Shown here: in pieces, positions 20,264-34,169 of the stretch
How positions within the stretch are numbered: the stretch's first letter is position 1
Layout of the letters: each line of letters starts with the position of its first letter
NCBI RefSeq assembly: GCF_003386195.1
Contig: NZ_QRDX01000004.1
Span: 62,001-126,000, forward strand
Source of the DNA: Seonamhaeicola aphaedonensis
GTDB lineage: Bacteria > Bacteroidota > Bacteroidia > Flavobacteriales > Flavobacteriaceae
Length of the DNA stretch: 64,000 bases
Direction of reading: 5' to 3'
Made by a program: the position numbers and the translations under genes
The notes under the pieces: model-generated
Seen by the model: the letters and a program-made list of their open reading frames with translations, nothing else
Databases searched by the model: none
Told to the model about the DNA's origin: nothing

Positions 20264-20307
20264 TGTTTAACTTTTTTTATTTTTTGTTAAACATTTTGTA
20301 TCTTTAC
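20264..20307 (+). promoter_or_regulatory. Shared promoter/operator of photoprotection operon A
   Basis: GTTTAAC (20265-20271) and its inverted partner GTTAAAC (20286-20292) are separated by 14 AT bases, 21 bp centre to centre. A -7-like TATCTTTA lies at 20299-20306, 18 bp before the regulator ATG. The right half-site falls between the expected -33 and -7 regions, so a bound protein would interfere with RNA polymerase. The same 44 bp recur at 28799-28842 with four differences. The binding protein is unknown; the TetR-like product of the first gene is an obvious candidate. Confidence 0.75.
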
Positions 20308-20323
20308 CATAAATATTCAAATT

Positions 20324-20980
20324 ATGGCAAAGAAGAAATCCATATCTAAAAACGACATCGTCACATGGTACATGGATTATGTGCTAGAACACGATGAAAA
20401 CCCAAAAACAGTATTTGCTTTTGCCAAAATCAAGAATTTTGAAGAAGTACATTTCTACAAACATTTTACATCATTTGAGGCTATTGAAAAAGGTATTTTT
20501 GAAGTATTTTTTATAAACTCATTAAAAGTACTTGAAAAAAACGAAGACTATGTAATTTTCGATGCTAGAAACAAACTATTAAGTTTTTATTACACCTTTT
20601 TCGAAAACCTCACCGCTAATCGAAGTTATGTAAAACACATATTAGATAAATACAAAAATGATCTTAAGGGATTGCAAATACTGTCGGGATTAAAATCTCA
20701 TTTTACAAGCTATGTGGGGCAATTAGAAATACAAATGCTTGATATCAAACAAGAGCAGATAGAAAAATTACAAGATAGAGCTCTCAAAGAATCAGCATGG
20801 TTACAGTTACTAATGACCATGAAATTTTGGTTAAATGATACTTCGCCTTCATTTGAAAAAACGGACATCTTTATAGAAAAATCTGTTAATACCACATTTG
20901 ATGTATTAGATATTGCGCCTGTAAAGAGTGTGATAGATTTAGGAAAATTTCTTTTCAAAGAAAGATTTAGCATGAATTAG
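20324..20980 (+). CDS. TetR-family-like transcriptional regulator
   Basis: 218 residues. The N terminus (about 1-65) fits a TetR-type helix-turn-helix: KNDIVTWYMDYVLEHDENPKTVFAFAKIKNFEEVHFYKHFTSFEAIEKGIF, with FYKHF in the position of the usual YYHF recognition motif. The helical remainder resembles the TetR C-terminal domain family of Bacteroidota proteins; no ligand is predictable. It is the first gene of operon A, immediately behind the inverted-repeat promoter, so autoregulation and control of the second operon are likely inferences. The next gene starts 3 bp after the stop. Confidence 0.75.
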   Translation: MAKKKSISKNDIVTWYMDYVLEHDENPKTVFAFAKIKNFEEVHFYKHFTSFEAIEKGIFEVFFINSLKVLEKNEDYVIFDARNKLLSFYYTFFENLTANRSYVKHILDKYKNDLKGLQILSGLKSHFTSYVGQLEIQMLDIKQEQIEKLQDRALKESAWLQLLMTMKFWLNDTSPSFEKTDIFIEKSVNTTFDVLDIAPVKSVIDLGKFLFKERFSMN

Positions 20981-20983
20981 TTT

Positions 20984-22297
20984 ATGAAAACCATTGATAA
21001 CATACCTACATCAAAAATTCAACGTGCTACAAAGCTGGTAACAACAGGTGCCAAGGTAGGCGTGAATTATATTAAATATTACGGTGATAAAATTGTAAAA
21101 ACAGAAGCTGAGGCTAAAGAACGCCTAAACAAAAACAATGCTGAAGATATTTACGACGGGTTGAAACAGCTAAAAGGAAGTGCTCTAAAAGTAGCCCAAA
21201 TGCTTAGTATGGAAAAAAGCATTTTACCAAGAGCCTATGTTGAGAAGTTCTCATTAGCGCAATTCTCGGTTCCACCTTTATCACCGCCATTAGTAATTAA
21301 AACATTCAAAAAGTACTTTGGAAAACATCCAAATGACATATTTGATACTTTCAACGCAACTTCTGTAAACGCTGCTAGCATCGGACAGGTGCATGTTGCA
21401 ATTAAAGATGGGAAAAAACTTGCTGTGAAAATCCAATACCCAGGAGTTGCGGAAAGTATCGCATCAGATTTAGCCATGGTGAAACCAGTGGCTATGAGTA
21501 TGTTTAATATCAAAGGAAAAGACTCTGATAAGTATTTTAAGGAGGTAGAAAGTAAATTGGTTGAGGAAACTAATTATATTTTAGAGGTATCACAAAGCAA
21601 GGAAATATCCAAAGCCTGCAGTCATATTTCGAACTTAAAATTTCCGAAATATTATGAAAACTTATCCTCTGAGCGTATCATTACTATGGATTATATGGAG
21701 GGCGAACACCTTTCTGAATTTACTGCTCATAACCAAGATCAAGAGAAAGCAAATAAATTAGGACAAGCTCTTTGGGACTTCTACATGTTTCAAATACACA
21801 ATTTGAAAAAGGTACACGCCGATCCACACCCAGGTAATTTCCTAATTTCTGAAAAAGGAGAATTAATTGCGCTAGATTTTGGATGTATGAAAGCTATTCC
21901 CAAAGAATTCTACACACCTTATTTTGAGCTTGCATTGCCTGAAAACATAAACAATCAAGAAAAGTTCGTTAACAAATTATATGAGCTGGAAATATTGAAA
22001 GATGACGACAGTAAGGAAGAATTAGAATTTTTTACTGCCATGTTTCACCAGATGCTGAGTTTGTTTACCCAACCATTTCATAATGAAACCTTTAATTTTT
22101 CGGATGCCACATTTTTTGGAAAAATTGCAGAACTAGGGGAGCGTTACTCTAAAAGCACAGATTTAAAGAAAATGAACGGTAATCGTGGTTCGAAACATTT
22201 TATATACATCAATCGTACCTTTTTTGGGCTTTACAATTTAATGTTCGATTTAAAAGCCGAAAACATCAAAATCAATAATTATCTAAGATTATCATAA
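20984..22297 (+). CDS. ABC1/UbiB (AarF) family atypical kinase
   Basis: 437 residues of the ADCK/UbiB protein-kinase-like fold. Seen: nucleotide loop NAASIGQVHVAIKDGKKLAVKIQYPG (about 124-149) with the family Ala-rich loop and Lys, catalytic HADPHPGNFLI (about 281-291) and metal-binding LDFGC (about 301-305). The N-terminal signature normally KxGQ reads KVAQ (ALKVAQMLS, about 67-75). Relatives act in quinone or isoprenoid lipid metabolism and in plastid photostress. Here it sits between a regulator and redox enzymes of the photolyase operon; substrate unknown. Confidence 0.87.
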   Translation: MKTIDNIPTSKIQRATKLVTTGAKVGVNYIKYYGDKIVKTEAEAKERLNKNNAEDIYDGLKQLKGSALKVAQMLSMEKSILPRAYVEKFSLAQFSVPPLSPPLVIKTFKKYFGKHPNDIFDTFNATSVNAASIGQVHVAIKDGKKLAVKIQYPGVAESIASDLAMVKPVAMSMFNIKGKDSDKYFKEVESKLVEETNYILEVSQSKEISKACSHISNLKFPKYYENLSSERIITMDYMEGEHLSEFTAHNQDQEKANKLGQALWDFYMFQIHNLKKVHADPHPGNFLISEKGELIALDFGCMKAIPKEFYTPYFELALPENINNQEKFVNKLYELEILKDDDSKEELEFFTAMFHQMLSLFTQPFHNETFNFSDATFFGKIAELGERYSKSTDLKKMNGNRGSKHFIYINRTFFGLYNLMFDLKAENIKINNYLRLS

Positions 22298-22298
22298 G

Positions 22299-22931
22299 AT
22301 GCAGTATTTCAGCGAAAGCGACATACAGGAGTTAAATCATATCTATAAAATCAATTTGATTAATAGTTGTTCTGGCTACAAATCTGCCAACTTAATAGGT
22401 TCCACCTCAAAAGACGGCAAAGAAAATGTTGCTGTATTTAGTTCTGTAACACACATTGGATCAAGTCCAGCTCTGTTAGGCTTTTTTTTGAGGCCAACAA
22501 CAGTTTTAAGAAATACCTATGAAAATTTAAAGGCCACAGGCGTTTATACCATAAACCATATTCACAAAACCATAGTTAGTGAAGCTCATCATACTTCGGC
22601 AAAATATGATGTGGACATTTCAGAATTTGATGTAACTGATTTAGAAGCAGAATACAAACCTAACTGTTTGGCACCTTTTGTAAAAGGAGCTCCTATTCAA
22701 CTAGCCATGAAATATGTAGAAGAATACCCTATAAAAGCCAACAATACCATTCTGGTTATTGGGAAAGTTACGGGCCTATATGTAAATGATGATTTAATAG
22801 AAGAAGATGGTTTTATAAACCTTGCTAAAGCAGAAGTTGCTGCTATTAACGGATTGGATGGCTATGTTATACCCAAAGAAAAAACACGCTATGGTTATCA
22901 AAGACCAAAAGCTTTAATAATGAACTCATGA
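22299..22931 (+). CDS. Flavin reductase-like FMN-binding protein
   Basis: 210 residues, split-barrel flavin-binding fold. The N-terminal half has SCSGYKSANLIGSTSKDGKENVAVFSSVTHIGSSPALLGFFLRP (about 22-65), the FMN-binding strand-loop pattern of this family. It starts 1 bp after the ABC1 gene and overlaps the next gene by 4 bp. It could supply reduced flavin or use FMN as cofactor; in a cluster of FAD photolyases a flavin role is suggestive but not proved. Confidence 0.82.
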   Translation: MQYFSESDIQELNHIYKINLINSCSGYKSANLIGSTSKDGKENVAVFSSVTHIGSSPALLGFFLRPTTVLRNTYENLKATGVYTINHIHKTIVSEAHHTSAKYDVDISEFDVTDLEAEYKPNCLAPFVKGAPIQLAMKYVEEYPIKANNTILVIGKVTGLYVNDDLIEEDGFINLAKAEVAAINGLDGYVIPKEKTRYGYQRPKALIMNS

Positions 22932-24397
22932 CAATTCTTGTAACAGGCGCAACAGGTTATATTGGTAAGCGTTTGATTCCGTTTTTATTGAATCAAGGAC
23001 ATACGGTTGTGTGTGTAGTTAGAGACAGATTACGAGCAGACAAAAGTTACATTGATGAGGATAATGTTTACGTGATTGAGGCTGACTTTTTAAAGCCTGA
23101 AACACTTGAAAACATTCCAAAAAAAATAGATGTTGCGTATTATTTAATTCATTCTATGTCTAATTCCTCAAAGGATTTTGAATCGCTTGAGGAACACTGT
23201 GCTATCAATTTTAAAAATTACATTGAAACAACCGATACCAAACAAGTTATTTATTTGAGTGGCATTACCAATGAAGATGTTTTATCAAAACACTTACGCT
23301 CAAGAAAAAATGTAGAGGAACATTTAAAATCTTATAAGTATGCCTTAACCATTTTTAAAGCAGGAATCATAGTAGGCTCTGGTAGTTCATCTTTTGAAAT
23401 CATTAGAGATTTGGTTGAAAAACTACCTTTTATGATTGCCCCAAAATGGTTAAACACGAAAACGCAACCATTAGCCGTAAGAGACGTTTTAGCATTTTTG
23501 TACCGTGCTGCGGGCAACACATCGGTTTATAATAAATCGTTTGATGTTTTTGGTCCAGAAATTTTAACCTATAAGGAAATGTTGTTGCAATTTGCCGAGG
23601 TTAGAGGCTTAAAACGTTACATATTAACAGTGCCATTAATGACGCCAAAATTGTCATCGTATTGGTTGTACTTTGTAACATCAACCTCATATAAATTGGC
23701 TACCTCATTAGTAGATAGTATGGGCATTCAAATAATAGGAAAACCAAGTAATATTAATGAATCACTCAATGTAAACCCTATAACCTACAAAGAGGCTGTA
23801 GAATTAGCGTTCGAAAGAATTGAGCAAAATAGTATTGTTTCCAGTTGGAAAGATTCTATGGTAAGTAGTGGAAGACTAAGCAAAAGTTTACATAAATATG
23901 TAAACGTTCCAAAATTTGGATGCTTTAGAGATACACAGAAACGATATGTTATAGATGCTGAACAAACCATAGACAAGATTTGGAGAATAGGTGGTGAAAA
24001 CGGGTGGTATTATGGTACAATTCTATGGCGCATACGAGGGTATCTAGACAAACTATTTGGTGGGATTGGATTAAGACGAGGAAGAACAAACCCTTCAGAG
24101 TTAGATGCTGGAGACGCTTTAGATTTTTGGCGTGTTATATATGCTGATAAAGATCAACAGAAATTATTGCTCTATGCCGAAATGCGACTACCTGGAGAGG
24201 CTTGGCTAGAATTTAAAATACGGAATAATGAACTGATACAAACGGCCACTTTTAGACCACGCGGACTTTGGGGTAGGTTGTATTGGTACAGTATTCTACC
24301 CTTTCACGGTTTTATTTTTTCTGGAATGATTAATAAACTAGTTAAAGTTGAGTCACAAAAAGCAGCACTTACCACAGAAAATATGTCCAATTTGTAA
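22928..24397 (+). CDS. SDR/NAD(P)H-binding protein with DUF2867 domain
   Basis: 489 residues in two parts. The N-terminal extended SDR-like Rossmann domain has [16 protein letters not shown] (about 6-21) and YYLIHSM (about 77-83). The C-terminal DUF2867/SRPBCC-like domain (about 325-475) has [26 protein letters not shown] and [19 protein letters not shown]. This fusion is common in Bacteroidota; its substrate is not known. It starts inside the stop of the flavin reductase gene (4-bp overlap), and its own 3' end contains the start of the DUF2256 gene. Confidence 0.85.
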
Positions 24398-24494
24398 ACG
24401 TCCGTTTTCTTGGAGAAAGAAATGGGCAAAACATTGGGAACAGGTTAAATATTGTAGCGAAAGATGCCGAAAAAACAAGACACCAACGGTTTAG
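24348..24494 (+). CDS. DUF2256 zinc-ribbon-like small protein, TTG start
   Basis: 48 residues, overlapping the SDR gene by 50 bp and the CRY-DASH gene by 31 bp in another frame. Product begins [17 protein letters not shown] and continues [19 protein letters not shown] then SERCRKNK. The CxxC ... C(x3)C pattern and the WRKKWAKxWxxVKYCSxRCR block are the DUF2256 signature, which leaves little doubt despite the TTG start and length. Four Cys fit a zinc ribbon. DUF2256 genes are often found next to cryptochrome/photolyase genes (from memory); function unknown. Confidence 0.88.
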
Positions 24495-25774
24495 TTTGGT
24501 TTAGAAATAACCTTAGAGTTAATGATAATGAAGTTTTAAACAAAGCCTTAGAAAATCATAAACATGTTATTGGATTGTATTGTTTTGATCCAAGACAATT
24601 TAAAACGGAACTTTTTGGGTTTAAAAAAACAGAAAAGTATAGAGCTAAATTTTTAATTGAAACAGTTGAGAATTTAAAACAAAGTTTGAATAGATTAAAT
24701 GTTGAACTTTTTGTTTATTATGAACTACCTGAAAAGGTAATCCCAAAACTTGTTAATCAATTTAAAATTAATTCAATTTATCTTCAAAAGGAATGGACAA
24801 ATGAAGAAGTTGAAGTTCTTGAAGGCATAAAATTAAATTGTCTCACTAATATCGCATTCAAAGAGTATTATGATCAATTTTTATTTCATCCAGAGGATAT
24901 TAAAATGCCGTTTGAAGATATTCCTCAGGTATTTACGAATTTCAGAAAATATGTTGAAAAATACTGTCTGGTTAAACCAATAAACAAACCCACAGCGGCA
25001 GAGCCCATACAAAACCTTTCAAACCTAACTTATATTCCTACACTTGAAAACCTAGGGTTTGAGAATTTTAAAACACACCCAAATACGGCTTTTCCTTTTA
25101 ACGGCGGTGAAACCTCAGCTATAAATCGATTAAATCATTACTTTTTTCAAACTAAAAAATTAGGTTTTTACAAAAAAACTAGAAACGGTTTAATTGGTGA
25201 AGATTACAGCTCAAAATTCTCTCCTTGGTTAGCAAACGGAAGCATTTCAGCAAGAACAATTTACTGGTACATTAGTAAATTTGAAAAGGAACATTATAAA
25301 AACCAATCAACATATTGGCTCTTATTTGAACTTATTTGGCGCGACTATTTTAAGTACATATCCTTAAAACATGGTAATACTATTTTTAAAATTGAAGGTA
25401 TTCTGGGTAAAACTTATGAATGGGATACAAACAATGCTAAAATTAAGCAATGGATTAATGGTAAAACATCATCATCTTTTGTGAATGCCAATATGATAGA
25501 ATTAAAGGAAACTGGGTGGATGAGCAATAGGGGTAGACAAAACGTGGCATCATATTTTTCCAAAGATTTGCTGCTCGATTGGAGAATTGGTGCTGCGTAT
25601 TTTGAATCTCTACTCTTAGACTACGATGTACATAGTAATTATGGAAATTGGATGTACGTTGCCGGTGTGGGTAATGACCCTAGAGATAGAAAGTTTAATG
25701 TAAACCAGCAAGCAAACCGATATGATCCCTCAGGAAAATTTCAAAATATGTGGTTACAAAAAGTCTTGTTTTAA
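24464..25774 (+). CDS. CRY-DASH cryptochrome/photolyase
   Basis: 436-residue flavoprotein of the DASH class; relatives bind FAD and methenyltetrahydrofolate and repair cyclobutane dimers in single-stranded DNA or act in light signalling. N-terminal antenna domain starts [17 protein letters not shown]. The FAD domain has [66 protein letters not shown], the clearest DASH signature (about 352-403). It keeps the Trp residues expected for electron transfer. It overlaps DUF2256, and the next gene starts 2 bp after its stop. Confidence 0.93.
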
Positions 25775-25776
25775 AA

Positions 25777-27264
25777 ATGAGTGCTCAGGATATTCACATA
25801 GTATTTCCACATCAATTATTCAAGAAAACTGAAGTTCTTGAAACAGTAAACCATATTTATTTAGTTGAGGAATTTTTATTTTTTAAGCAATATAAATTCC
25901 ACCAACAAAAGATAGCTTTTCATCGTGCTAGTATGAAGGCCTATGAAAACTACCTAAAATCAATTGGCAAATCAGTAACTTATGTTAATGCTACAGAAGA
26001 CACATCGGATATAAGAATCTTACTTCCCAAACTTTTTAAAACGGGCGTTTCAACCCTTCATATCATTAATCCAACAGATAATTGGTTGGAAAAGCGTATT
26101 GTATCAGCCTCAAAAGATATCACAATAATATGGTATGAGAATCCGCTTTTTATAAATTCTAAAGAAGATTTATCATTATTTTTTAAACCATCTAAACAAA
26201 AATTTTTTCAAACATCTTTTTATAAAAACCAACGAAAAAAGCGAAATATTTTAATGCATGGCGACCAACCAGCAGGTGGTAAATGGACTTTTGACACTGA
26301 AAACCGACAAAAATACCCTAAAGGTAAAAAACCTCCAAGTATACAATTTCAAAAGAAAACAATATATCATAAAGAAGCAGAAGACTACCTAATCCAAAAT
26401 TTTAAAAACAATTATGGGGAGCTTAATGATTTTGTTGTATATCCAATCGATTTCAAATCTGCTGAAGCTTGGTTAAACCAATTTTTAGAACAACGTTTCC
26501 ATGAATTTGGTAAGTATGAAGATGCTATTGTTAAAGAAGAGCACTTTTTAAACCATAGTTTATTATCTCCGTTAATTAATGTTGGTCTTTTAGATGCGCA
26601 AGATATAGTAGATAAAGCCATTATTTATGCTAAGACTCATGATATTCCCATAAATTCAACAGAAGGTTTTGTGCGTCAAATACTAGGTTGGCGGGAATTT
26701 ATTAGAGGTGTTTACGAGGTAAAAGGAACTGAAGAACGCACCAAAAACTTTTGGAACTTCTCTAGGAAAATACCAAAATCCTTTTACGATGGTTCAACTG
26801 GAATTAGACCCGTTGATGAGGTTATTAAAAAAGTATTAAAAACTGGTTATGCCCACCATATTGAAAGACTAATGATTTTAGGGAATTTTATGGTGCTTTG
26901 TGAATTCGACCCCAATGATGTTTACCAGTGGTTTATGGAATTATTCATTGATGCTTATGATTGGGTAATGGTGCCTAATGTGTATGGTATGAGCTTGTTT
27001 TCCGATGGAGGTTTAATGAGCACAAAACCTTATATAAGTAGTAGCAATTACATTTTAAAAATGAGCAATTACCCAAAAGGAGAATGGCAAAACACATGGG
27101 ATGGCTTATTTTGGACCTTCATGGACAAACATCGTGATTTTTTCTCAACCAACCCTAGATTAGGTATGCTGATTGGCACATTAGATAAAATGACGCCTGA
27201 AACAAAAAGCAAACATTTTAAAAACGCTAAAACTTTTTTTAATGCCCTAGATAATGACAAATAG
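25777..27264 (+). CDS. FeS-BCP/(6-4)-photolyase-like protein lacking Fe-S cysteines
   Basis: 495 residues from the ATG at 25777, chosen over an upstream GTG (25750) that lies inside the DASH gene. The DPRP-like antenna domain (about 1-180) and the FAD domain have the pattern of PhrB/CryB proteins: FVRQILGWREFIRG, AHHIERLMILGNFM, WFMELFIDAYDWVMVPNVYGMS, DGGLMSTKPYISSSNYI. Characterised members bind a 4Fe-4S cluster with four Cys; here only Cys375 exists in the whole protein, and the segment that normally carries CxxC (about 429-445, NYPKGEWQNTW) has none. Repair of (6-4) photoproducts is a family inference. Confidence 0.85.
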   Translation: MSAQDIHIVFPHQLFKKTEVLETVNHIYLVEEFLFFKQYKFHQQKIAFHRASMKAYENYLKSIGKSVTYVNATEDTSDIRILLPKLFKTGVSTLHIINPTDNWLEKRIVSASKDITIIWYENPLFINSKEDLSLFFKPSKQKFFQTSFYKNQRKKRNILMHGDQPAGGKWTFDTENRQKYPKGKKPPSIQFQKKTIYHKEAEDYLIQNFKNNYGELNDFVVYPIDFKSAEAWLNQFLEQRFHEFGKYEDAIVKEEHFLNHSLLSPLINVGLLDAQDIVDKAIIYAKTHDIPINSTEGFVRQILGWREFIRGVYEVKGTEERTKNFWNFSRKIPKSFYDGSTGIRPVDEVIKKVLKTGYAHHIERLMILGNFMVLCEFDPNDVYQWFMELFIDAYDWVMVPNVYGMSLFSDGGLMSTKPYISSSNYILKMSNYPKGEWQNTWDGLFWTFMDKHRDFFSTNPRLGMLIGTLDKMTPETKSKHFKNAKTFFNALDNDK

Positions 27265-28735
27265 AGAAGAAATACATCTTGTATGGCTAAAGCGTGATTT
27301 ACGTTTGCAGGATAATGAAGCTATTTTTAATGCTTTAAATTCTGAAAAACGTGTTTTGCTTTTGTATTGTTTTGAACCTATATTACTTAAAGATTCTCAT
27401 TATAGTCAACGTCATTGGAATTTTATTAAAGAATCTATTACAGATTTAAACAAGACTCTTAAACCTTACAACGCTAAAATTTTGGCGGTAGAGTCGGATA
27501 TAATTCCAACCATTAATCAATTGCTTTCCAAATATAGGATTTCAAATATTTTTTCTCACCAAGAAACGGGAATTTTAGTGACTTATGAACGGGATAAAAA
27601 TTTTAAGCGCTATTGCAAGAACAATTTAATACAGTGGCATGAAAATATAAACAATGGGGTGCAGCGTGGTTTAAAAAACAGGGATGGATGGAATGAAATA
27701 GTAGAGGCGTTTTATGCCATTGAACCCCTCTCCTTTTCGCCACAGGAAAACCAACTATTGCTAATAGATGAAATTGAAACTTTAGAGAATTATTTTAAAA
27801 TTCCCAATTTAAATACTCTAAATACAAAATCATTTCAAAAAGGAGGTAGAACTTCAGGTTTAAAATATTTAAACTCTTTTTTTAAAGAGCGCTATCCTAA
27901 TTATATGATACATATCTCCAAACCAGAATTGGCAAGAATGAGTTGTAGTAGACTTTCACCATACTTGGCATGGGGAAATTTATCGATTCGTGAGATTTAC
28001 CACAGAGCAAATCATTTTAAAAAAACTGCCAGACACAAAAAAGCTATTGAAGCTTTTATGTCTAGACTACGCTGGCAAACCCATTTTATTCAAAAGTTTG
28101 AAATGGAGCACACTATGGAAGAAGCTAGTCTTAACAGAGGTTTCCACAAGCTTAAAAAAAGTATTTCTAAACAATATAAATATGCTTGGAAAACAGGACA
28201 AACTGGCTATCCGCTTGTAGATGCCTGTATGCGTTGTTTAAATGAAACTGGCTACTTAAATTTTAGAATGCGTGCATTGGTAGTTTCCTTCTTTACTCAT
28301 AACCTTTGGCAGCCGTGGCAAGAAGCCACTACTCATTTATCACAAATGTTTTTAGATTTTGAGCCCGGTATACACTTCCCGCAACTACAAATGCAAGCTG
28401 GTGAAACCGGTGTAAACATGTTGCGCATTTATAACCCAATTAAAAATAGCTTGGAGCACGATCCTGAAGCTATATTTATTAAAAAATGGGTGCCAGAATT
28501 AAAGGCACTGGATATACCTTTTGTTCATCAGCCTTATTTGATGACTGAAATGGAACAACAGTTCTATAATTTCAAATTAGGAAAGGACTATCCCAAACCA
28601 ATTGTAGACGTAGAAACCTCTCGCAGAAAAGCAAGCGACACTCTTTGGGAATATAGAAAAGATAAAACTGTACTTGAAGAAACCAAAAGAATTTTACGAA
28701 AGCACACCTTAAAAAGCCGGCTAACTAAATCATAG
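27254..28735 (+). CDS. Divergent photolyase/cryptochrome homologue
   Basis: 493 residues. N-terminal photolyase domain HLVWLKRDLRLQDNEAIF (about 8-25); FAD domain with SRLSPYLAWGNLSIREIY and YAWKTGQTGYPLVDACMRCLNETG, matching class I photolyase (first triad Trp kept). The next Trp (QPWQ) also seems kept, but the FAD-proximal WQW block is replaced by HFPQLQMQAGETG (374-386), with no Trp there and no obvious counterpart of the Asn that faces flavin N5. It overlaps the preceding gene by 11 bp and ends operon A. It may be a sensor or a differently wired repair enzyme. Confidence 0.82.
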   Translation: MTNREEIHLVWLKRDLRLQDNEAIFNALNSEKRVLLLYCFEPILLKDSHYSQRHWNFIKESITDLNKTLKPYNAKILAVESDIIPTINQLLSKYRISNIFSHQETGILVTYERDKNFKRYCKNNLIQWHENINNGVQRGLKNRDGWNEIVEAFYAIEPLSFSPQENQLLLIDEIETLENYFKIPNLNTLNTKSFQKGGRTSGLKYLNSFFKERYPNYMIHISKPELARMSCSRLSPYLAWGNLSIREIYHRANHFKKTARHKKAIEAFMSRLRWQTHFIQKFEMEHTMEEASLNRGFHKLKKSISKQYKYAWKTGQTGYPLVDACMRCLNETGYLNFRMRALVVSFFTHNLWQPWQEATTHLSQMFLDFEPGIHFPQLQMQAGETGVNMLRIYNPIKNSLEHDPEAIFIKKWVPELKALDIPFVHQPYLMTEMEQQFYNFKLGKDYPKPIVDVETSRRKASDTLWEYRKDKTVLEETKRILRKHTLKSRLTKS

Positions 28736-28798
28736 AACAGCTAATTAACTTATAGTTATTAACCTCATAAGTTTTATCAATAGTTGCATGTTAATTTT

Positions 28799-28842
28799 TG
28801 TTTAACTTTTTTTATTTAAAGTTAAACATTTTGTATATTTAC
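28799..28842 (+). promoter_or_regulatory. Shared promoter/operator of photoprotection operon B
   Basis: GTTTAAC (28800-28806) and GTTAAAC (28821-28827) with a 14-base spacer, then TATATTTA (28834-28841) as -7-like element, 19 bp before the ATG at 28861. 40 of 44 bases equal those at 20264-20307; half-sites, spacing and distance to the first gene are all conserved, while the intervening coding DNA is unrelated. Strong evidence of a common regulator. Confidence 0.78.
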
Positions 28843-28860: not shown

Positions 28861-29289
28861 ATGATTCTGAATACTACACATTTTAACAAAGAACACAAAC
28901 AATTAATACAAGACTTGGTGGGGCCTTCATTTACATTTTTAGAAGCATTTAAAATGAAAGGTGTCGGATCAAAACGTATGATTATTGAAGATGTTAGTCC
29001 CAATTTAAGTAGACTTATGAATAATGTCTCTGATGTTAATTATGCCAATATAGAATTACGTCAAAAAGGCATTCTAATATTCATTAACAAAGGCTTACAA
29101 AGCTTTACTTGGGTAATCCCCTACTATCAGTTAGTAATCTATAAAACAAATGGTTCTAGCATTCATGCACAGGGCAAATTTATTCATTTTAGAAATAGTA
29201 AAACATTTAGGGAAAATAAAAAGTTTTTTGAGAAAATGTTAGATGAAAAAATAAAGTATGACAATCAATATAATTTTCAAAACACATGA
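28861..29289 (+). CDS. Unknown 142-residue protein, first gene of operon B
   Basis: No domain recognised. Soluble, mixed alpha/beta, no signal peptide. Central strand-rich part ANIELRQKGILIFINKGLQSFTWVIPYYQLVIYKTNGSSIHAQGKFIHF (about 60-110) looks like a PH- or lipocalin-like sheet, followed by a basic helix NSKTFRENKKFFEKMLDEK. It sits directly behind the shared promoter and overlaps the TIGR03643 gene by 4 bp, so the two are co-translated. Confidence 0.7.
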   Translation: MILNTTHFNKEHKQLIQDLVGPSFTFLEAFKMKGVGSKRMIIEDVSPNLSRLMNNVSDVNYANIELRQKGILIFINKGLQSFTWVIPYYQLVIYKTNGSSIHAQGKFIHFRNSKTFRENKKFFEKMLDEKIKYDNQYNFQNT

Positions 29290-29558
29290 CACTGAGTGTT
29301 CAAGAAACCGATAGAATTATAGAGATGGCTTGGGAAGACCGAACCACTTTTGAAGCTATAAAATTTCAGTTTGGCCTAAACGAACAGGAGGTCATTGAAT
29401 TAATGCGAAGAGAAATGAAACCTAGCAGCTTCAGAATGTGGAGAAAACGTGTACAAGGAAGAACAACAAAACATGAAAAATTAAGAACATTTGAAAAAGG
29501 ACGTTTTAAATGCAGTAGACAAAAACAAATAACACATAATAAAATTTCAAAACGCTAA
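29286..29558 (+). CDS. TIGR03643/DUF2805 family protein
   Basis: 90 residues. IIEMAWEDRTTFEAIKFQFGLNEQEVIELMRREMKPSSFRMWRKRVQGRTTKH (about 11-63) is the recognisable TIGR03643 (DUF2805) block; it is helix-turn-helix-like and ends in a very basic tail, which suggests nucleic-acid binding (inference). Start ATG overlaps the previous stop (ATGA). Family function unknown; its presence with photolyases is a repeated association from memory. Confidence 0.83.
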   Translation: MTLSVQETDRIIEMAWEDRTTFEAIKFQFGLNEQEVIELMRREMKPSSFRMWRKRVQGRTTKHEKLRTFEKGRFKCSRQKQITHNKISKR

Positions 29559-29606
29559 ACGTGCTTTGATTGGTTTTAAATCAAGACAGCACATAAAAAA
29601 GATAAT

Positions 29607-30302
29607 ATGCAATTAGAAAAATTAAAGACAAAGACAAACGGTCACAAGTTAAACGGTTTTACAATTGATGACATTGGTGATGATCATCTATTCACAGGAC
29701 TTGAAACACCTATGAGAAAAGATGCCTTTAAACTTAGTGACACTGAAAAAAAGGAGCGCATTGCCATTTTATTTGAAGAAATCATGGAGGTTATGGGTTT
29801 AGATTTAACCGATGATTCATTAAAAGGCACCCCAAAACGTGTTGCTAAAATGTATATAGATGAAATTTTTTCAGGTTTAAATCCCGATAATAAACCGAAG
29901 GTGGCCTTGTTTGATAATAAATACCAATACAATCAGATGTTGGTTGAAAAGAATATAACGTTCTATTCAAATTGCGAGCATCATTTTGTACCAATCATAG
30001 GAAAAGCACATGTAGCCTACATCTCGTCTGGTAAGGTTATTGGGCTTTCTAAACTAAACAGAATCGTTCAGTATTATGCTAAACGTCCACAAGTTCAAGA
30101 ACGGCTAACCAATCAAATTGCCAACGAATTAAAATCTATTTTAGACACAGAAGATGTAGCTGTTATAATAGACGCCAAACATCTTTGTGTATCATCAAGA
30201 GGAATTAAAGATAATACCTCTGCGACGGTTACCGCGTATTATGGCGGAAAATTTAATACTTCAGATAAGATTAAAGAATTACAAAATTATTTAAACGGTT
30301 AA
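29607..30302 (+). CDS. folE: GTP cyclohydrolase I (FolE)
   Basis: Converts GTP to 7,8-dihydroneopterin triphosphate, the first step of folate and pterin synthesis; decameric cytosolic zinc enzyme. 231 residues, usual for the family. Seen: TPKRVAKMYIDEIFSGL (about 74-90), the zinc/catalytic Cys-His in SNCEHHFVPIIGKAHVAYI (about 117-135), GLSKLNRIV, and HLCVSSRGI with the second Cys ligand (about 193-201). Placed inside the photolyase operon, it could raise pterin/folate supply for the methenyltetrahydrofolate antenna; whether another folE exists in the genome is not visible. Confidence 0.96.
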   Translation: MQLEKLKTKTNGHKLNGFTIDDIGDDHLFTGLETPMRKDAFKLSDTEKKERIAILFEEIMEVMGLDLTDDSLKGTPKRVAKMYIDEIFSGLNPDNKPKVALFDNKYQYNQMLVEKNITFYSNCEHHFVPIIGKAHVAYISSGKVIGLSKLNRIVQYYAKRPQVQERLTNQIANELKSILDTEDVAVIIDAKHLCVSSRGIKDNTSATVTAYYGGKFNTSDKIKELQNYLNG

Positions 30303-30306
30303 CATT

Positions 30307-30543
30307 ATGGAATTAGAATTAATTAACAGAGCGTTAGAGTTTGAACAAAGAAAAATGCGTGGTTTATCAACAAGTGACAGAGTTAAAATTTCTAGAGAAG
30401 CTAAAACTCTAATTTTAGATCTTAATCAGATTTACAAGGTTAAAAAAGACGAAAAAATCATGGACATCATGAAACGTTTAACAGCAATAAAAAGAAAAGT
30501 TGAGAAACGATTAATGGGTAAACATCTGATAGCTGGAATTTAA
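30307..30543 (+). CDS. 78-residue helical protein (paralogue of 34317 gene)
   Basis: Small, highly charged, helical protein: LINRALEFEQRKMRGLSTSD, then helix SREAKTLILDLNQIYKV and basic helix MDIMKRLTAIKRKVEKRLMG. 41 of 67 aligned residues equal the product of 34317-34547. No named family recognised. Starts 4 bp after folE and ends 2 bp before the SDR gene, so it belongs to the operon. Amphipathic pattern suggests a two-helix coiled-coil. Confidence 0.75.
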   Translation: MELELINRALEFEQRKMRGLSTSDRVKISREAKTLILDLNQIYKVKKDEKIMDIMKRLTAIKRKVEKRLMGKHLIAGI

Positions 30544-30545
30544 AA

Positions 30546-31229
30546 ATGGAAACAATAGTTATAGTTGGTGGTAGTAAAGGTATTGGTAATACTATTCTAG
30601 AAGAATTAATAACCAACAACAAGATTATTAATATAAGCAGATCGGCTCCAGAGCTTTCACATAATAACTTAACCCATTATGATTGTGATGTGACGCAGGA
30701 TGATTTACCAGACCTTGAACGTGCCGATAAGTTAGTTTATTGTCCGGGTAGTATAAATTTGAAACCCATTTCGAGATTGAGTATTGAAGATTTTCAAAGT
30801 GATTTTGATATAAATGTCTTAGGAGCTGTAAAGGCTATTCAAAAATATTTACCTCTTCTTAAACAGGGTAAAAATCCTGCTATGCTTTTTTTTAGTACGG
30901 TTGCAACTAAATTGGGAATGCCATTTCATGCCAGTGTAGCGGTATCAAAAGCAGGTGTTGAAGGTTTAGTAAAATCTCTAGGAGCCGAATTGGCACCAAC
31001 AGTAAGAATAAATGCCATAGCTCCTACAGTGACCAATACAAATCTGGCATCGAAGTTATTAAGAAATGAAAAAATGATTGAGAATATTACAGAACGTCAT
31101 CCGTTAAAAAAATTCTTAGACCCAAAGGAAGTTGCACAAATGGCCACGTTCTTACTTTCTAATAAAGCGGCTTCTATTTCTGGTCAAATATTTGAAATGG
31201 ATTGTGGCATTGTAAATCTAAAAATATAA
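30546..31229 (+). CDS. Atypical short-chain dehydrogenase lacking catalytic Tyr
   Basis: 227 residues, classical SDR Rossmann fold. Cofactor motif GGSKGIGNTILEEL (about 8-21), Ser in FFSTVATKLG (about 116-125), and the C-terminal PxxTxT and GQIFEMDCG parts are present. The YxxxK active site reads VAVSK (in HASVAVSKAG, about 133-142): Lys is kept but the Tyr position is Val. It may bind NAD(P) without normal dehydrogenase chemistry, or use another acid. Spacing of 2-3 bp to both neighbours. Confidence 0.82.
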   Translation: METIVIVGGSKGIGNTILEELITNNKIINISRSAPELSHNNLTHYDCDVTQDDLPDLERADKLVYCPGSINLKPISRLSIEDFQSDFDINVLGAVKAIQKYLPLLKQGKNPAMLFFSTVATKLGMPFHASVAVSKAGVEGLVKSLGAELAPTVRINAIAPTVTNTNLASKLLRNEKMIENITERHPLKKFLDPKEVAQMATFLLSNKAASISGQIFEMDCGIVNLKI

Positions 31230-31232
31230 ATT

Positions 31233-31763
31233 ATGAATACACTAAAAGCCTTTGTTTCTAGATTGCACACACCTCTGAAAAGACTTAATAAAGAAAGTAT
31301 CTACGATATTTCCATTAATGACCTGAATGGTAATCCTATAAATTTCAAAGATTTCCAAGGGAAGTATTTACTGTTTGTAAATGTAGCATCAAAATGTGGT
31401 TTTACACCGCAGTATAAAGATTTACAGCAATTGTACGATACATATAAAGATAAATTAGAAATCATTGGTGTACCTTGTAATCAGTTTGGTAATCAAGAAC
31501 CTGGAAGTGCCAATGACATTGAAACTTTCTGCCAGATTAACTACGGAGTTACCTTTACCATTACAGAGAAAATAAAGGTAAAAGGAAAGGACAAGCACGA
31601 ACTTTACAGCTGGCTTACTGAAAAAATAAATAATGGTGTTAAAAGTTCAAATGTTAAATGGAACTTTCAAAAATATCTATTAGACCCCAAAGGACAATTA
31701 ATTGACTATTTTTTTTCAATTACTAATCCTATGAGTTCAAAAATCACCAAGTATCTTAAATAA
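31233..31763 (+). CDS. Glutathione peroxidase-family thiol peroxidase
   Basis: 176 residues, thioredoxin fold. Reduces peroxides using a Cys (not selenocysteine): peroxidatic Cys in NVASKCGFTPQYKDLQ (about 46-61), Gln in VPCNQFGNQEPG (about 84-95), and Trp/Asn in KWNFQKYLLD. In bacteria the reductant is usually thioredoxin. No signal peptide, so cytosolic. Fits an oxidative/photo-oxidative stress operon. Confidence 0.93.
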   Translation: MNTLKAFVSRLHTPLKRLNKESIYDISINDLNGNPINFKDFQGKYLLFVNVASKCGFTPQYKDLQQLYDTYKDKLEIIGVPCNQFGNQEPGSANDIETFCQINYGVTFTITEKIKVKGKDKHELYSWLTEKINNGVKSSNVKWNFQKYLLDPKGQLIDYFFSITNPMSSKITKYLK

Positions 31764-31769
31764 AAAGCT

Positions 31770-31946
31770 ATGTTTAAACTATTTAAAAGGAAATCAAAAA
31801 GAGAAAAATTAGAAGAAAAGTTTAAAAAATTAATGCAAGAATGGCACAAATTGTCATCAATTAATAGAGCTGCCAGCGATAAAAAATATGCTGAAGCTCA
31901 AAAGATTGCTCAAATTTTGTATAATATGAAACATGAAGCTGCTTAG
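31770..31946 (+). CDS. Lacal_2735-family small protein
   Basis: 58 residues: MFKLFKRKSKREKLEEKF start, then LMQEWHKLSSINRAASDKKY and AEAQKIAQILYNMK. The pattern (FK-rich start, HKLSxxNRxxSDxKYAEA) matches the flavobacterial Lacal_2735 family of unknown function. Helical and strongly basic at the N terminus. Begins 6 bp after gpx and overlaps the tspO-like gene by 14 bp. Confidence 0.82.
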   Translation: MFKLFKRKSKREKLEEKFKKLMQEWHKLSSINRAASDKKYAEAQKIAQILYNMKHEAA

Positions 31947-32394
31947 TTTATTTGTTATATTTCTAGTTATTAATTTTGGAGCTCTGGCCTTGGGTAATTG
32001 GTTAATGGTAAACGGACCACAAACTCAATGGTATTTATCCTTAAATAAAGCCCCATGGACACCTCCGGGTTGGGTTTTTGGTATGGCTTGGTTTAGCATA
32101 ATGGTCTGCTTTTCAGTTTATATGGCTTACCTTTACAAGCTCATACCTGATTATCAAATCATTATACTTTTCAGTATTCAGTTTATTCTTAATGTTAGTT
32201 GGAATTATGTTTTTTTCAACAGAAGGCTAATTGCTTTAGGTTTTATTATAATTCTGTTATTGACTTTATTATTAGCCTTGTTCCTTTACCTATATGCTAA
32301 ACCGCTAAAGAGTATAAGTTTATTAATCATCCCCTATTTGTTATGGCTAATCATTGCATCCTCGTTAAATGGTTATATATATTTCAATAATTAA
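31933..32394 (+). CDS. TspO/MBR-family tryptophan-rich sensory protein
   Basis: 153 residues, five membrane helices. N-terminal signature WYLSLNKAPWTPPGWVFGMAW (about 33-53) and later FNVSWNYVFFN-like segment (ILNVSWNYVFFNRR) are diagnostic. TspO proteins bind porphyrins/haem and in Rhodobacter modulate light- and oxygen-controlled genes. In this cluster it may sense or clear photosensitising tetrapyrroles (inference). Overlaps Lacal_2735 by 14 bp; next gene 2 bp downstream. Confidence 0.93.
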   Translation: MKLLSLFVIFLVINFGALALGNWLMVNGPQTQWYLSLNKAPWTPPGWVFGMAWFSIMVCFSVYMAYLYKLIPDYQIIILFSIQFILNVSWNYVFFNRRLIALGFIIILLLTLLLALFLYLYAKPLKSISLLIIPYLLWLIIASSLNGYIYFNN

Positions 32395-32396
32395 AA

Positions 32397-32858
32397 ATGA
32401 AAATTTACACATTACACAGAAAACAAAAAATTCCAATTAGTGTTGATGAAGCATGGGACTTCTTATCGGATCCAAAAAATTTAAAAACTATTACACCAAA
32501 TTATATGGGTTTCAACATTTTATCTGGAGCTGATAGACCTATGTATGCGGGACAGATTATTCAGTATATTGTAACACCTGTTTTAGGAATTAAAACTAAG
32601 TGGGTCACAGAAATTACGCATGTAGTTGATAAATATTATTTTGTAGATGAGCAGCGCTTCGGTCCTTATGCTTTATGGCATCACAAGCATTTTATAAAAG
32701 AAATTAAAGGCGGTGTTGAAATGGAAGATATTATTGATTATAAACTTCCTTTTGGCTTTTTAGGTTCTTTAATGCATCCTATTCTGGTAAAGCCAAAATT
32801 AGAAGAAATATTTAACTACAGAAAGCAAAAGTTAGAAGCGCTATTTGGTTTCTATTAA
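32397..32858 (+). CDS. SRPBCC-family ligand-binding protein
   Basis: 153 residues, START/Bet v1-like helix-grip fold: N-terminal strand and helix KIPISVDEAWDFLSDPKNLKTITP, central sheet TKWVTEITHVVDKYYFVDEQRFGPYALWHHKHFI, and C-terminal helix KPKLEEIFNYRKQKLEALF. Ligand not known. It is directly between tspO and phr genes, as in many marine Bacteroidota light-response clusters (from memory). Confidence 0.85.
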   Translation: MKIYTLHRKQKIPISVDEAWDFLSDPKNLKTITPNYMGFNILSGADRPMYAGQIIQYIVTPVLGIKTKWVTEITHVVDKYYFVDEQRFGPYALWHHKHFIKEIKGGVEMEDIIDYKLPFGFLGSLMHPILVKPKLEEIFNYRKQKLEALFGFY

Positions 32859-32864
32859 TTACAC

Positions 32865-34169
32865 ATGAAACAGCCTATTAATATATTCTGGTTTAGAAGA
32901 GACTTAAGACTTTATGACAACAATGGGTTTTCAAAAGCCCTAAAAAGTAACTACAAAGTATTACCAATATTCATATTTGATTCGAATATTTTAGACAAGT
33001 TACCAAAAGATGATGCTAGAGTAACATTTATCTATAATACTCTGCAAACCATGCGTGAGAGTTTACAAAAAAATAACAAATCAGATATTGCTCTTTTTTA
33101 CGGTACACCATTAGAAGTCTTCAAAATCCTCATAAAAACTTACAACATACATACAGTTTATACAAATCATGACCATGAACCTTATGGAAAAGAAAGAGAT
33201 AGAAGCATAGAACACTTTCTTAAAAAAGAAAAAATAGCCTTTAGAACATATAAAGATCATGTTATTTTTGAAAGGTCTGAGATAGTAAAAAACAATGGAG
33301 AACCATATATGGTATATACCCCCTATATGAAAGCTTGGAAACAAAAGTTTACTATAGAACATTTGGATAAGTACAAAACTGAAGAAAATTTCAATAATTT
33401 ATATTCCTCAAAACAAACTAAAGATCTTGAACTTGTGGATATTGGCTTTAAAAAATCAGGTCAATACATAAAAGCTTATAATATTGATTCAGAGCTAATT
33501 GAAACTTATGAAGCCAAAAGAAATTTTCCTGCCGAAGATGCTACTTCTAGATTAGGCCCTCATTTGCGGTTTGGGACTGTAAGTATTCGTGAAATTGTTA
33601 AAAAATCTCTTTCCCAAGAAAACCCTACCTTCTTAAATGAGCTAATATGGAGAGAATTTTTCATGCAAATTCTTTGGCACTTCCCATATACTGTAGACTA
33701 TTGTTTTAAAACAAAATATGAGAGACTAGAATGGAGAAATAACGAAACAGATTTTAAAGCATGGTGCTTTGGTCAAACAGGATATCCTCTAGTTGATGCT
33801 GGCATGCGACAGCTTAACAAAACTGGCTTTATGCACAACCGCGTGAGAATGTTGGTAGGAAGTTTTCTTTGTAAACATTTGCTGATAGATTGGAGATGGG
33901 GTGAAGCCTATTTTGCAGAAAAGTTACATGACTATGAACTCTCAAGCAATGTAGGTAACTGGCAATGGGTAGCTGGATGTGGTGTGGATGCTGCTCCTTA
34001 TTTTAGAATATTTAATCCTATAACGCAGGTTAAAAAATTTGATAAGAATTTAGAGTATATAAATAAATGGGTTCCAGAATTCCAAGAGCTCACCTATCCA
34101 AAACCTATAGTAGAACACAAATTTGCAAGAGAACGTTGTTTGGAATTCTATAAGAAAGCTCTGAATTAA
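32865..34169 (+). CDS. phrB: Class I deoxyribodipyrimidine photolyase
   Basis: 434 residues; uses blue light and FADH- to split cyclobutane pyrimidine dimers. N-terminal antenna domain INIFWFRRDLRLYDNNGF. The FAD domain has RLGPHLRFGTVSIREIV, FLNELIWREFFMQILWHFP, AWCFGQTGYPLVDAGMRQLNKTGFMHNRVRMLVGSFLCKHLLIDWRWGEAYF and SSNVGNWQWVAGCGVDAAPYFRIFNP. All three electron-transfer Trp equivalents and the flavin Asn are present, unlike in the 27254 homologue. Last gene of operon B, 6 bp after SRPBCC. Confidence 0.95.
   Translation: MKQPINIFWFRRDLRLYDNNGFSKALKSNYKVLPIFIFDSNILDKLPKDDARVTFIYNTLQTMRESLQKNNKSDIALFYGTPLEVFKILIKTYNIHTVYTNHDHEPYGKERDRSIEHFLKKEKIAFRTYKDHVIFERSEIVKNNGEPYMVYTPYMKAWKQKFTIEHLDKYKTEENFNNLYSSKQTKDLELVDIGFKKSGQYIKAYNIDSELIETYEAKRNFPAEDATSRLGPHLRFGTVSIREIVKKSLSQENPTFLNELIWREFFMQILWHFPYTVDYCFKTKYERLEWRNNETDFKAWCFGQTGYPLVDAGMRQLNKTGFMHNRVRMLVGSFLCKHLLIDWRWGEAYFAEKLHDYELSSNVGNWQWVAGCGVDAAPYFRIFNPITQVKKFDKNLEYINKWVPEFQELTYPKPIVEHKFARERCLEFYKKALN

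Follow-up and report, generated by a model that had tools for sequence, protein, structure and literature searches.

The closest described systems are those of the light-responsive CarH and LitR proteins. In the passages of the papers drawn on here and below, CarH of Thermus binds an operator in which an 11-bp direct repeat (nAnnTnnACAn) occurs three times, and it dissociates from DNA on illumination (PMC8156234), and the class II LitR proteins of Pseudomonas (PplR/PmlR) repress photolyase, cryptochrome-like, folE and other genes in the dark from a site with paired half-sites, T(G/A)TACA-N12-TGTA(C/T)A (PMC9758184). Among flavobacteria, light-induced carotenoid genes have been described in Chryseobacterium lacus, in a report that detected neither a car nor a lit operon (PMC7064467), and MliR of Bizionia is described as an iron-related MerR-like protein (PMC9478572); a search of the open-licence literature retrieved no published flavobacterial CarH/LitR regulon. 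Here, we analyzed a window of 64,000 nucleotides (nt) of Seonamhaeicola aphaedonensis contig NZ_QRDX01000004.1 (the window being the whole stretch of DNA studied, to whose positions the coordinates refer), in which two operons of photolyase, redox and pterin genes are preceded by the same inverted-repeat box. We propose that a single CarH/LitR-like MerR protein, whose gene lies outside the window, uses both boxes as its operators.

An earlier note on this DNA had reported near-identical 44-bp repeats ahead of both operons, which was confirmed by direct alignment: 40 of 44 bases are identical between 20264-20307 and 28799-28842, and the gap to the start codon is 16 bp in operon 1 and 18 bp in operon 2. 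The half-site centres of the box lie 21 bp apart. The motif GTTTAAC-N(13-15)-GTTAAAC matched twice in the window and not once in 100 dinucleotide shuffles, and the genome-wide search proposed in that note located the N14 form at exactly two places of the 3.5-Mb genome, both in the window, with 0 matches for a reversed-letter control. In the Bacteroidetes promoter consensus, composed of -33 and -7 elements, the latter reads TAnnTTTG; both window promoters carry a TAnnTTTA element, with one mismatch, at +34 counted from the beginning of the inverted repeat (Table 1). The claims that one common operator-promoter precedes both operons, and that the placement of the box is compatible with a repressor, are supported.

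The S. aphaedonensis genome holds a single match to the MerR protein (G000:C7:120914-121810), just upstream of crtI and outside the window, and a 1-mismatch box lies between merR and crtI. It is very likely that this protein binds the boxes, as judged from the distribution of the motif across 299 Flavobacteriaceae genomes, in which a match with an E-value of 1e-20 or better was counted as MerR-positive. The exact motif occurs in 112 of 241 MerR-positive vs. 2 of 58 MerR-negative genomes (Fisher p = 2.7e-11), a p-value that overstates independence because the genomes share ancestry, which weighs against our reading; for the reversed control, the corresponding counts are 29/241 and 4/58 (p = 0.35). 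In total, 165 exact sites were counted vs. 37 control sites.

The earlier note had assigned the boxes to the TetR-like product of 20324-20980, as a repressor that would bind both of them and control itself as well as the second operon. Its gene is indeed the first behind one box, a TetR fold is indicated by Pfam TetR_C_23, and a profile of the protein weakly matches TetR regulators of known structure over its N-terminal part (best E 0.026). Nevertheless, when genomes were sorted by gene pair, the motif was present in 93/187 with both genes, in 19/54 with MerR and without the TetR-like gene, in just 2/10 with the TetR-like gene and without MerR, and in 0/48 with neither; the two MerR-negative genomes with the motif are incomplete assemblies (G108, 81% complete; G299, 76% complete). 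Moreover, the box before the TetR gene, scored as at most one mismatch to GTYTAAY-N13-15-RTTARAC in 50 genomes chosen for the best-scoring TetR genes or for a missing or divergent MerR, with the motif not a criterion, was found with a close MerR in 34/34, with a divergent MerR in 7/9 and without MerR in 2/7 (again G108 and G299), the last two groups being small; it is therefore gone in five of the seven genomes that keep the TetR gene without MerR. Shuffled TetR upstream regions had a box in 43 of 5000. Within one genus, G304 has both MerR and box and G088 (99% complete) has neither, with the TetR gene kept. Furthermore, no Pfam TetR_N match was found in the 20324 product, only TetR_C_23, and its helix-turn-helix (HTH)-like third is the least conserved part, with positions at 90% identity numbering 18/75 in residues 1-75, 32/75 in residues 76-150 and 31/63 in residues 151-213 (13 unique sequences). 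On co-occurrence, box loss and poor HTH conservation, and with the weak profile match as the contrary point, we rejected the TetR-like protein as the regulator; that it binds the boxes is highly improbable, and it is probably a target instead.

In addition, weak COQ9 matches of the TetR_C_23 protein were observed (E 0.0027 and 0.017), and its gene adjoins that of a COQ8-like ABC1 kinase (20324-22297). It is perhaps a COQ9-like kinase partner and not a DNA-binding regulator, against which its weak TetR profile matches speak.

The half-sites themselves vary with the type of MerR. A GTC-type left half-site precedes the TetR gene in 6 of 9 divergent-MerR vs. 0 of 34 close-MerR genomes, and in four of those six both halves are changed (GTCTAAT/GTTAGAC). 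Of 11 divergent merR genes, eight are themselves preceded by a TGTCNAAY/RTTNGACA box within 1.5 mismatches, a count that concerns a degenerate pattern and had no shuffled control. Autoregulation of the main-group merR is not claimed, its upstream region having a box within one mismatch in 3/79 loci and within two in 9/79.

The genes behind the boxes of relatives are also consistent. The motif with N13-15 was present in 19 of 59 relatives, and 29 sites, the two of S. aphaedonensis included, were inspected in context, 23 with N14 and six with N15. Of the 23 exact N14 sites, 21 lie ahead of crtI, one of the two operons (TetR/photolyase or 142-aa/folE), another folE or a fasciclin-type gene (assigned by eye at L018); the remaining two precede a D-arabinono-lactone-oxidase-like gene (L021) and a gene without assigned function (L026). 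None of the six N15 sites precedes a target gene, two being inside genes, and a spacing of 15 was on that ground taken as chance; despite this, N15 boxes precede crtI in L188, L191 and L221. Further exact sites (L044-L072), an automatic pick of 30 loci from the 165 exact sites with L003 already in the earlier set, precede target genes in 29/29 cases: crtI in 12, the TetR operon in seven, the 142-aa operon in six, fasciclin genes in two, folE in one and a photolyase-family gene, 137 nt away, in one. The reading of the motif as a general intergenic sequence was rejected, because its reversed control is much less frequent and its contexts are specific. Boxes before crtI sit between crtI and the gene of a MerR protein of about 299 aa, which points to this protein as the binder.

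Two promoter registers were observed. At crtI, a perfect TAnnTTTG lies at +14 of the box in 20/20 sites, and fasciclin sites have the -7 element at +14 in 2/3; with at most one mismatch, the element lies at +33 to +35 in 15/15 TetR sites and at +34 in 10/10 sites of the 142-aa operon. In a second set of 80 loci from GTDB species genomes, partly overlapping the 299, a box with at most two mismatches was found behind merR in 59, of which 50 have a perfect -7 element at +14. The registers are about 20 bp apart, near the 21-bp half-site distance, so that the -7 element has one half-site just ahead of it in either case, and the other shifts from upstream to over the start region. No clear -33 element was seen in the consensus of aligned box sites.

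The MerR protein shares 95% identity with its Seonamhaeicola sediminis counterpart and 84% with the protein of genome G003. An N-terminal MerR winged HTH is indicated by Pfam MerR_1 (E 1e-12, above cut-off), and the helical-bundle domain by PF02607 (B12-binding_2; 34.6 bits, cut-off 23); the Rossmann B12-binding domain PF02310 scored 15.9 bits, below the cut-off of 32.1, and is supported by a fold match. In phmmer, MerR matches Thermus CarH (5c8d) with an E-value of 1.7e-14. The W-x9-EH motif is present in 12 of 12 proteins checked, 35 others being left out of this count as they had been selected by the motif itself, and W143, E153 and H154 are invariant in an alignment of 22 rows. ExHDIG in the S. 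aphaedonensis protein agrees with the lower-ligand histidine motif E/DxHxxG, with E191 and H193 invariant in the same rows. Counterparts of CarH W131, E141, H142 and H177 are present, in the numbering of Thermus CarH (PMC10442372).

In a predicted model of the S. sediminis protein, built with 22 aligned relatives (predicted local distance difference test score, pLDDT, 87.6), both B12 domains are present. The 12 top-ranking PDB matches of the model are all full-length chains of Thermus CarH (5c8e_B, E 9.4e-14), and among the 50 matches listed the TM-score of the cobalamin domain, normalized to target length, reaches 0.85. By this predicted fold and its cofactor motifs, although not by the curated CarH score, the MerR protein is of CarH/LitR type. 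Its neighbours are carotenoid genes, with merR-crtI in S. aphaedonensis and a merR-crtI-crtB-like order in L201, and a cobalamin adenosyltransferase gene is present in the genome, with which the strain could convert acquired B12 into adenosylcobalamin. The light trigger suggested in the earlier note gains only indirect support, from the CarH-like predicted fold and the B12-binding residues of MerR; dependence on light and on B12 we infer.

In one branch of the family, the regulon may include an RNA. In 20 genomes with 43-49% identical TetR and 49-57% identical MerR, chosen for lower TetR identity and MerR coordinates (G201 already having an exact site), the roughly 500 bp upstream of TetR contain a box with at most one mismatch in 15 cases, and with at most two in 19, which is near chance for that length. 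After the box, 16 of 20 upstream regions (19 scanned) carry a conserved segment that contains the core TTATTGGTTAGGTTGT and ends in a terminator-like hairpin; it looks like a putative small RNA (sRNA) of the same regulon. It is about 110 nt long (loci L239, L242-L248 and L250-L257, upstream of the TetR-like gene, and L279-L308). In an alignment of 14 stretches, 6 of 11 helix pairs have compensated changes, and none of eight single folds was equalled by more than 7 of 200 shuffles; this terminator helix is the sole sRNA helix that we claim, stem 1 being generally no stronger than its shuffled arms (median shuffled fraction of 0.33 over 24 of 30 loci, with the loop motif absent in the other six). 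With at most one mismatch, the core occurs once each in 40 of the 299 genomes (control 0; S. aphaedonensis 0), all 40 with MerR. Of 30 sRNA loci, 28 have the box with no more than two mismatches and 24 with no more than 1.5, vs. 17 of 523 random windows, and 22 have a perfect -7 element at +33 to +36. No Rfam family reached its gathering score among eight sRNA loci. By eye, a TGACAAACTGACA-type sequence was also seen to recur ahead of the sRNA or TetR box in L239, L243-L247, L249-L256 and others, and the divergent gene looked htpG-like in L241 and L249.

We consider, with a probability of roughly three in four, that the MerR protein represses in the dark and releases in light. In the dark, an adenosylcobalamin-bound MerR oligomer would occupy the two half-sites, one of them just upstream of the -7 element, with the other further upstream at the photolyase and folE operons, but covering both the -7 box and the start site at crtI and at least some fasciclin genes, and would keep RNA polymerase off. 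Light would cleave the cofactor and release MerR, and carotenoid genes would be switched on jointly with those for photolyases, redox enzymes and pterin synthesis.

A MerR that binds the same boxes but activates, or acts both ways, is conceivable in view of its HTH type, since many MerR proteins activate, of the half-site always just upstream of the -7 element, and of the lack of a visible -33 element in the site consensus. On the other hand, the other half-site overlaps the -7 and start region in all 20 crtI sites, a position from which bound protein would obstruct polymerase, the two registers are in keeping with occlusion, and known CarH/LitR proteins are repressors in the cited passages (PMC8156234, PMC9758184); we regard activation as unlikely. 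Binding by some other regulator co-inherited with MerR, for instance with the carotenoid genes, would also produce the co-occurrence, which cannot separate linked genes, and many MerR-positive genomes carry crtI and other candidates outside our search; given the position of the box in the merR-crtI gap, the change of half-sites at the TetR operon between types of MerR and, less well supported, their change upstream of divergent merR genes, we regard it as highly improbable.

Several observations weigh against dark repression by a CarH-like MerR. No exact site was found in 129 of 241 MerR-positive genomes; the divergent-MerR genomes G031, G127, G269 and G281 have one exact standard site each, that of G031 preceding the TetR gene. 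The crtI box, present in two of the 20 genomes with 49-57% identical MerR, is missing in 18, and no box lies behind merR in 21 of the 80 loci, Maribacter and Cellulophaga among them. An equally good -7 match also lies further upstream (+3, +13 or +14) in 6/15 TetR and 2/10 142-aa sites. In the protein, His132 of Thermus CarH, which serves there in bis-His ligation after photolysis, is replaced by Gln (Q144, invariant in 22 rows), and by Ser, Thr or Gly in divergent MerR proteins, and the NCBIfam CarH equivalog NF052513 was not reached (69.4 bits vs. a cut-off of 400). In the cited passages on CarH, the H132A variant mostly kept its tetrameric state on illumination, in disagreement with an earlier report, cited in the same paper, that it dissociates (PMC10442372).

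In the S. aphaedonensis genome, the plain motif with two mismatches was at noise level (41 sites vs. 66 in the control) and was dropped for that reason as the basis of a regulon list. The extended box TGTYTAAY-N14-RTTARACA with at most one mismatch gave 14 sites vs. 2 in the control. Eight belong to the two window operons, crtI, a crtW-like gene (NF045690, 226 bits vs. a cut-off of 350; TTG start inferred) and tandem pairs at two fasciclin-domain genes. The other six are weaker: ahead of a mevalonate-kinase-like gene, ahead of a GLPGLI protein, near 2-isopropylmalate synthase, behind a fasciclin gene and two intragenic. The first of these, a 1-mismatch box (L238; G000:C8:154367-154396), lies 36 nt before its gene; it may connect the regulon with the supply of carotenoid precursors, or be due to chance.

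Operon 1 extends over 20324-28735, with three cryptochrome/photolyase-family genes, and operon 2 over 28861-34169; gene spacing suggests that each set may form a single transcript. Their genes bear out the photoprotective character ascribed to the set in the earlier note (Table 1). The 78-aa protein between folE and the short-chain dehydrogenase (SDR) gene is conserved, and the same small protein was observed at that place in L067, L068 and L240.

Table 1. Boxes, promoter elements and genes of the two operons, in window positions.
Feature	Position	Strand	Basis
Operator box 1, GTTTAAC-N14-GTTAAAC	20265..20292	no strand	motif search, shuffles, genome scan
-7-type promoter element TATCTTTA	20299..20306	+	+34 from box 1 start; Bacteroidetes promoter consensus
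TetR_C_23 protein, operon 1 first gene; probable target rather than binder	20324..20980	+	Pfam, co-occurrence, conservation
ABC1 (UbiB/COQ8-like) kinase	20984..22297	+	domain search
Flavin reductase-like protein	22299..22931	+	domain search
SDR / DUF2867 protein	22928..24397	+	domain search
DASH-type cryptochrome	24464..25774	+	match above curated cut-off
Photolyase-related protein (DPRP)	25750..27264	+	domain search
Cryptochrome/photolyase family protein	27254..28735	+	domain and curated family search
Operator box 2, GTTTAAC-N14-GTTAAAC	28800..28827	no strand	motif search, shuffles, genome scan
-7-type promoter element TATATTTA	28834..28841	+	+34 from box 2 start; Bacteroidetes promoter consensus
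142-aa protein, operon 2 first gene	28861..29289	+	no family match in domain and curated family searches
DUF2805 protein	29286..29558	+	domain search
GTP cyclohydrolase I (folE)	29607..30302	+	domain search
78-aa small protein filling folE-SDR gap	30307..30543	+	also in L067, L068 and L240
Short-chain dehydrogenase (SDR)	30546..31229	+	domain search
Glutathione peroxidase-like protein	31233..31763	+	domain search
TspO/MBR protein	31933..32394	+	domain search
SRPBCC-type protein (Polyketide_cyc)	32397..32858	+	domain search
DNA photolyase	32865..34169	+	domain and curated family search

Tentatively, and with doubt still outweighing confidence, we suggest a light regulon widespread in the Flavobacteriaceae, with a CarH relative lacking the His132 ligand, a palindromic operator used in two registers that differ by about one half-site, and an sRNA arm in one branch. 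If the proposed control by MerR holds, carotenoid, photolyase and pterin genes of a large bacterial family would have a light switch in common that is defined in sequence, and a regulator would be available for a family whose light-induced carotenoid synthesis was described, in the cited part of the C. lacus report, without one (PMC7064467). Light responses of the family would be tied to vitamin B12, and natural variants (no His132, other half-sites) could serve the study of CarH-type switching and DNA recognition.

Compared with known systems, the protein has the MerR HTH, two-part B12 fold, W-x9-EH and ExHxxG of CarH from Thermus and Bacillus megaterium (class I LitR), and, as in class I, the operator overlaps the promoter and merR adjoins carotenoid genes. 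It differs in sequence (19-22% identity to Thermus CarH in full-length Foldseek matches), at His132, in its targets (photolyases, folE and fasciclin genes, and the putative sRNA in relatives), and, as a further point against our reading, in an inverted-repeat box with centres 21 bp apart, in place of the 11-bp direct repeats bound by CarH of Thermus and B. megaterium. Within the half-site core TAAACA, T--ACA is common to the Thermus repeat (PMC8156234) and the Pseudomonas class II site (PMC9758184). The CarA and CarH proteins of Myxococcus xanthus are likewise MerR-type repressors with a B12-binding motif at a carotenoid promoter (PMC8156234), but there the operator, of about 55 bp, is bound by two CarA dimers, and an antirepressor, CarS, takes part. 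Class II LitR shares paired half-sites and a similar gene set (photolyase, cryptochrome-like, GTP cyclohydrolase I), and differs in having kept only one of the two B12 domains, the helical bundle, in its short LOV protein partner, and in half-site and spacing. In brief, the gene set resembles that of Pseudomonas class II, the protein resembles class I, and the operator resembles neither.

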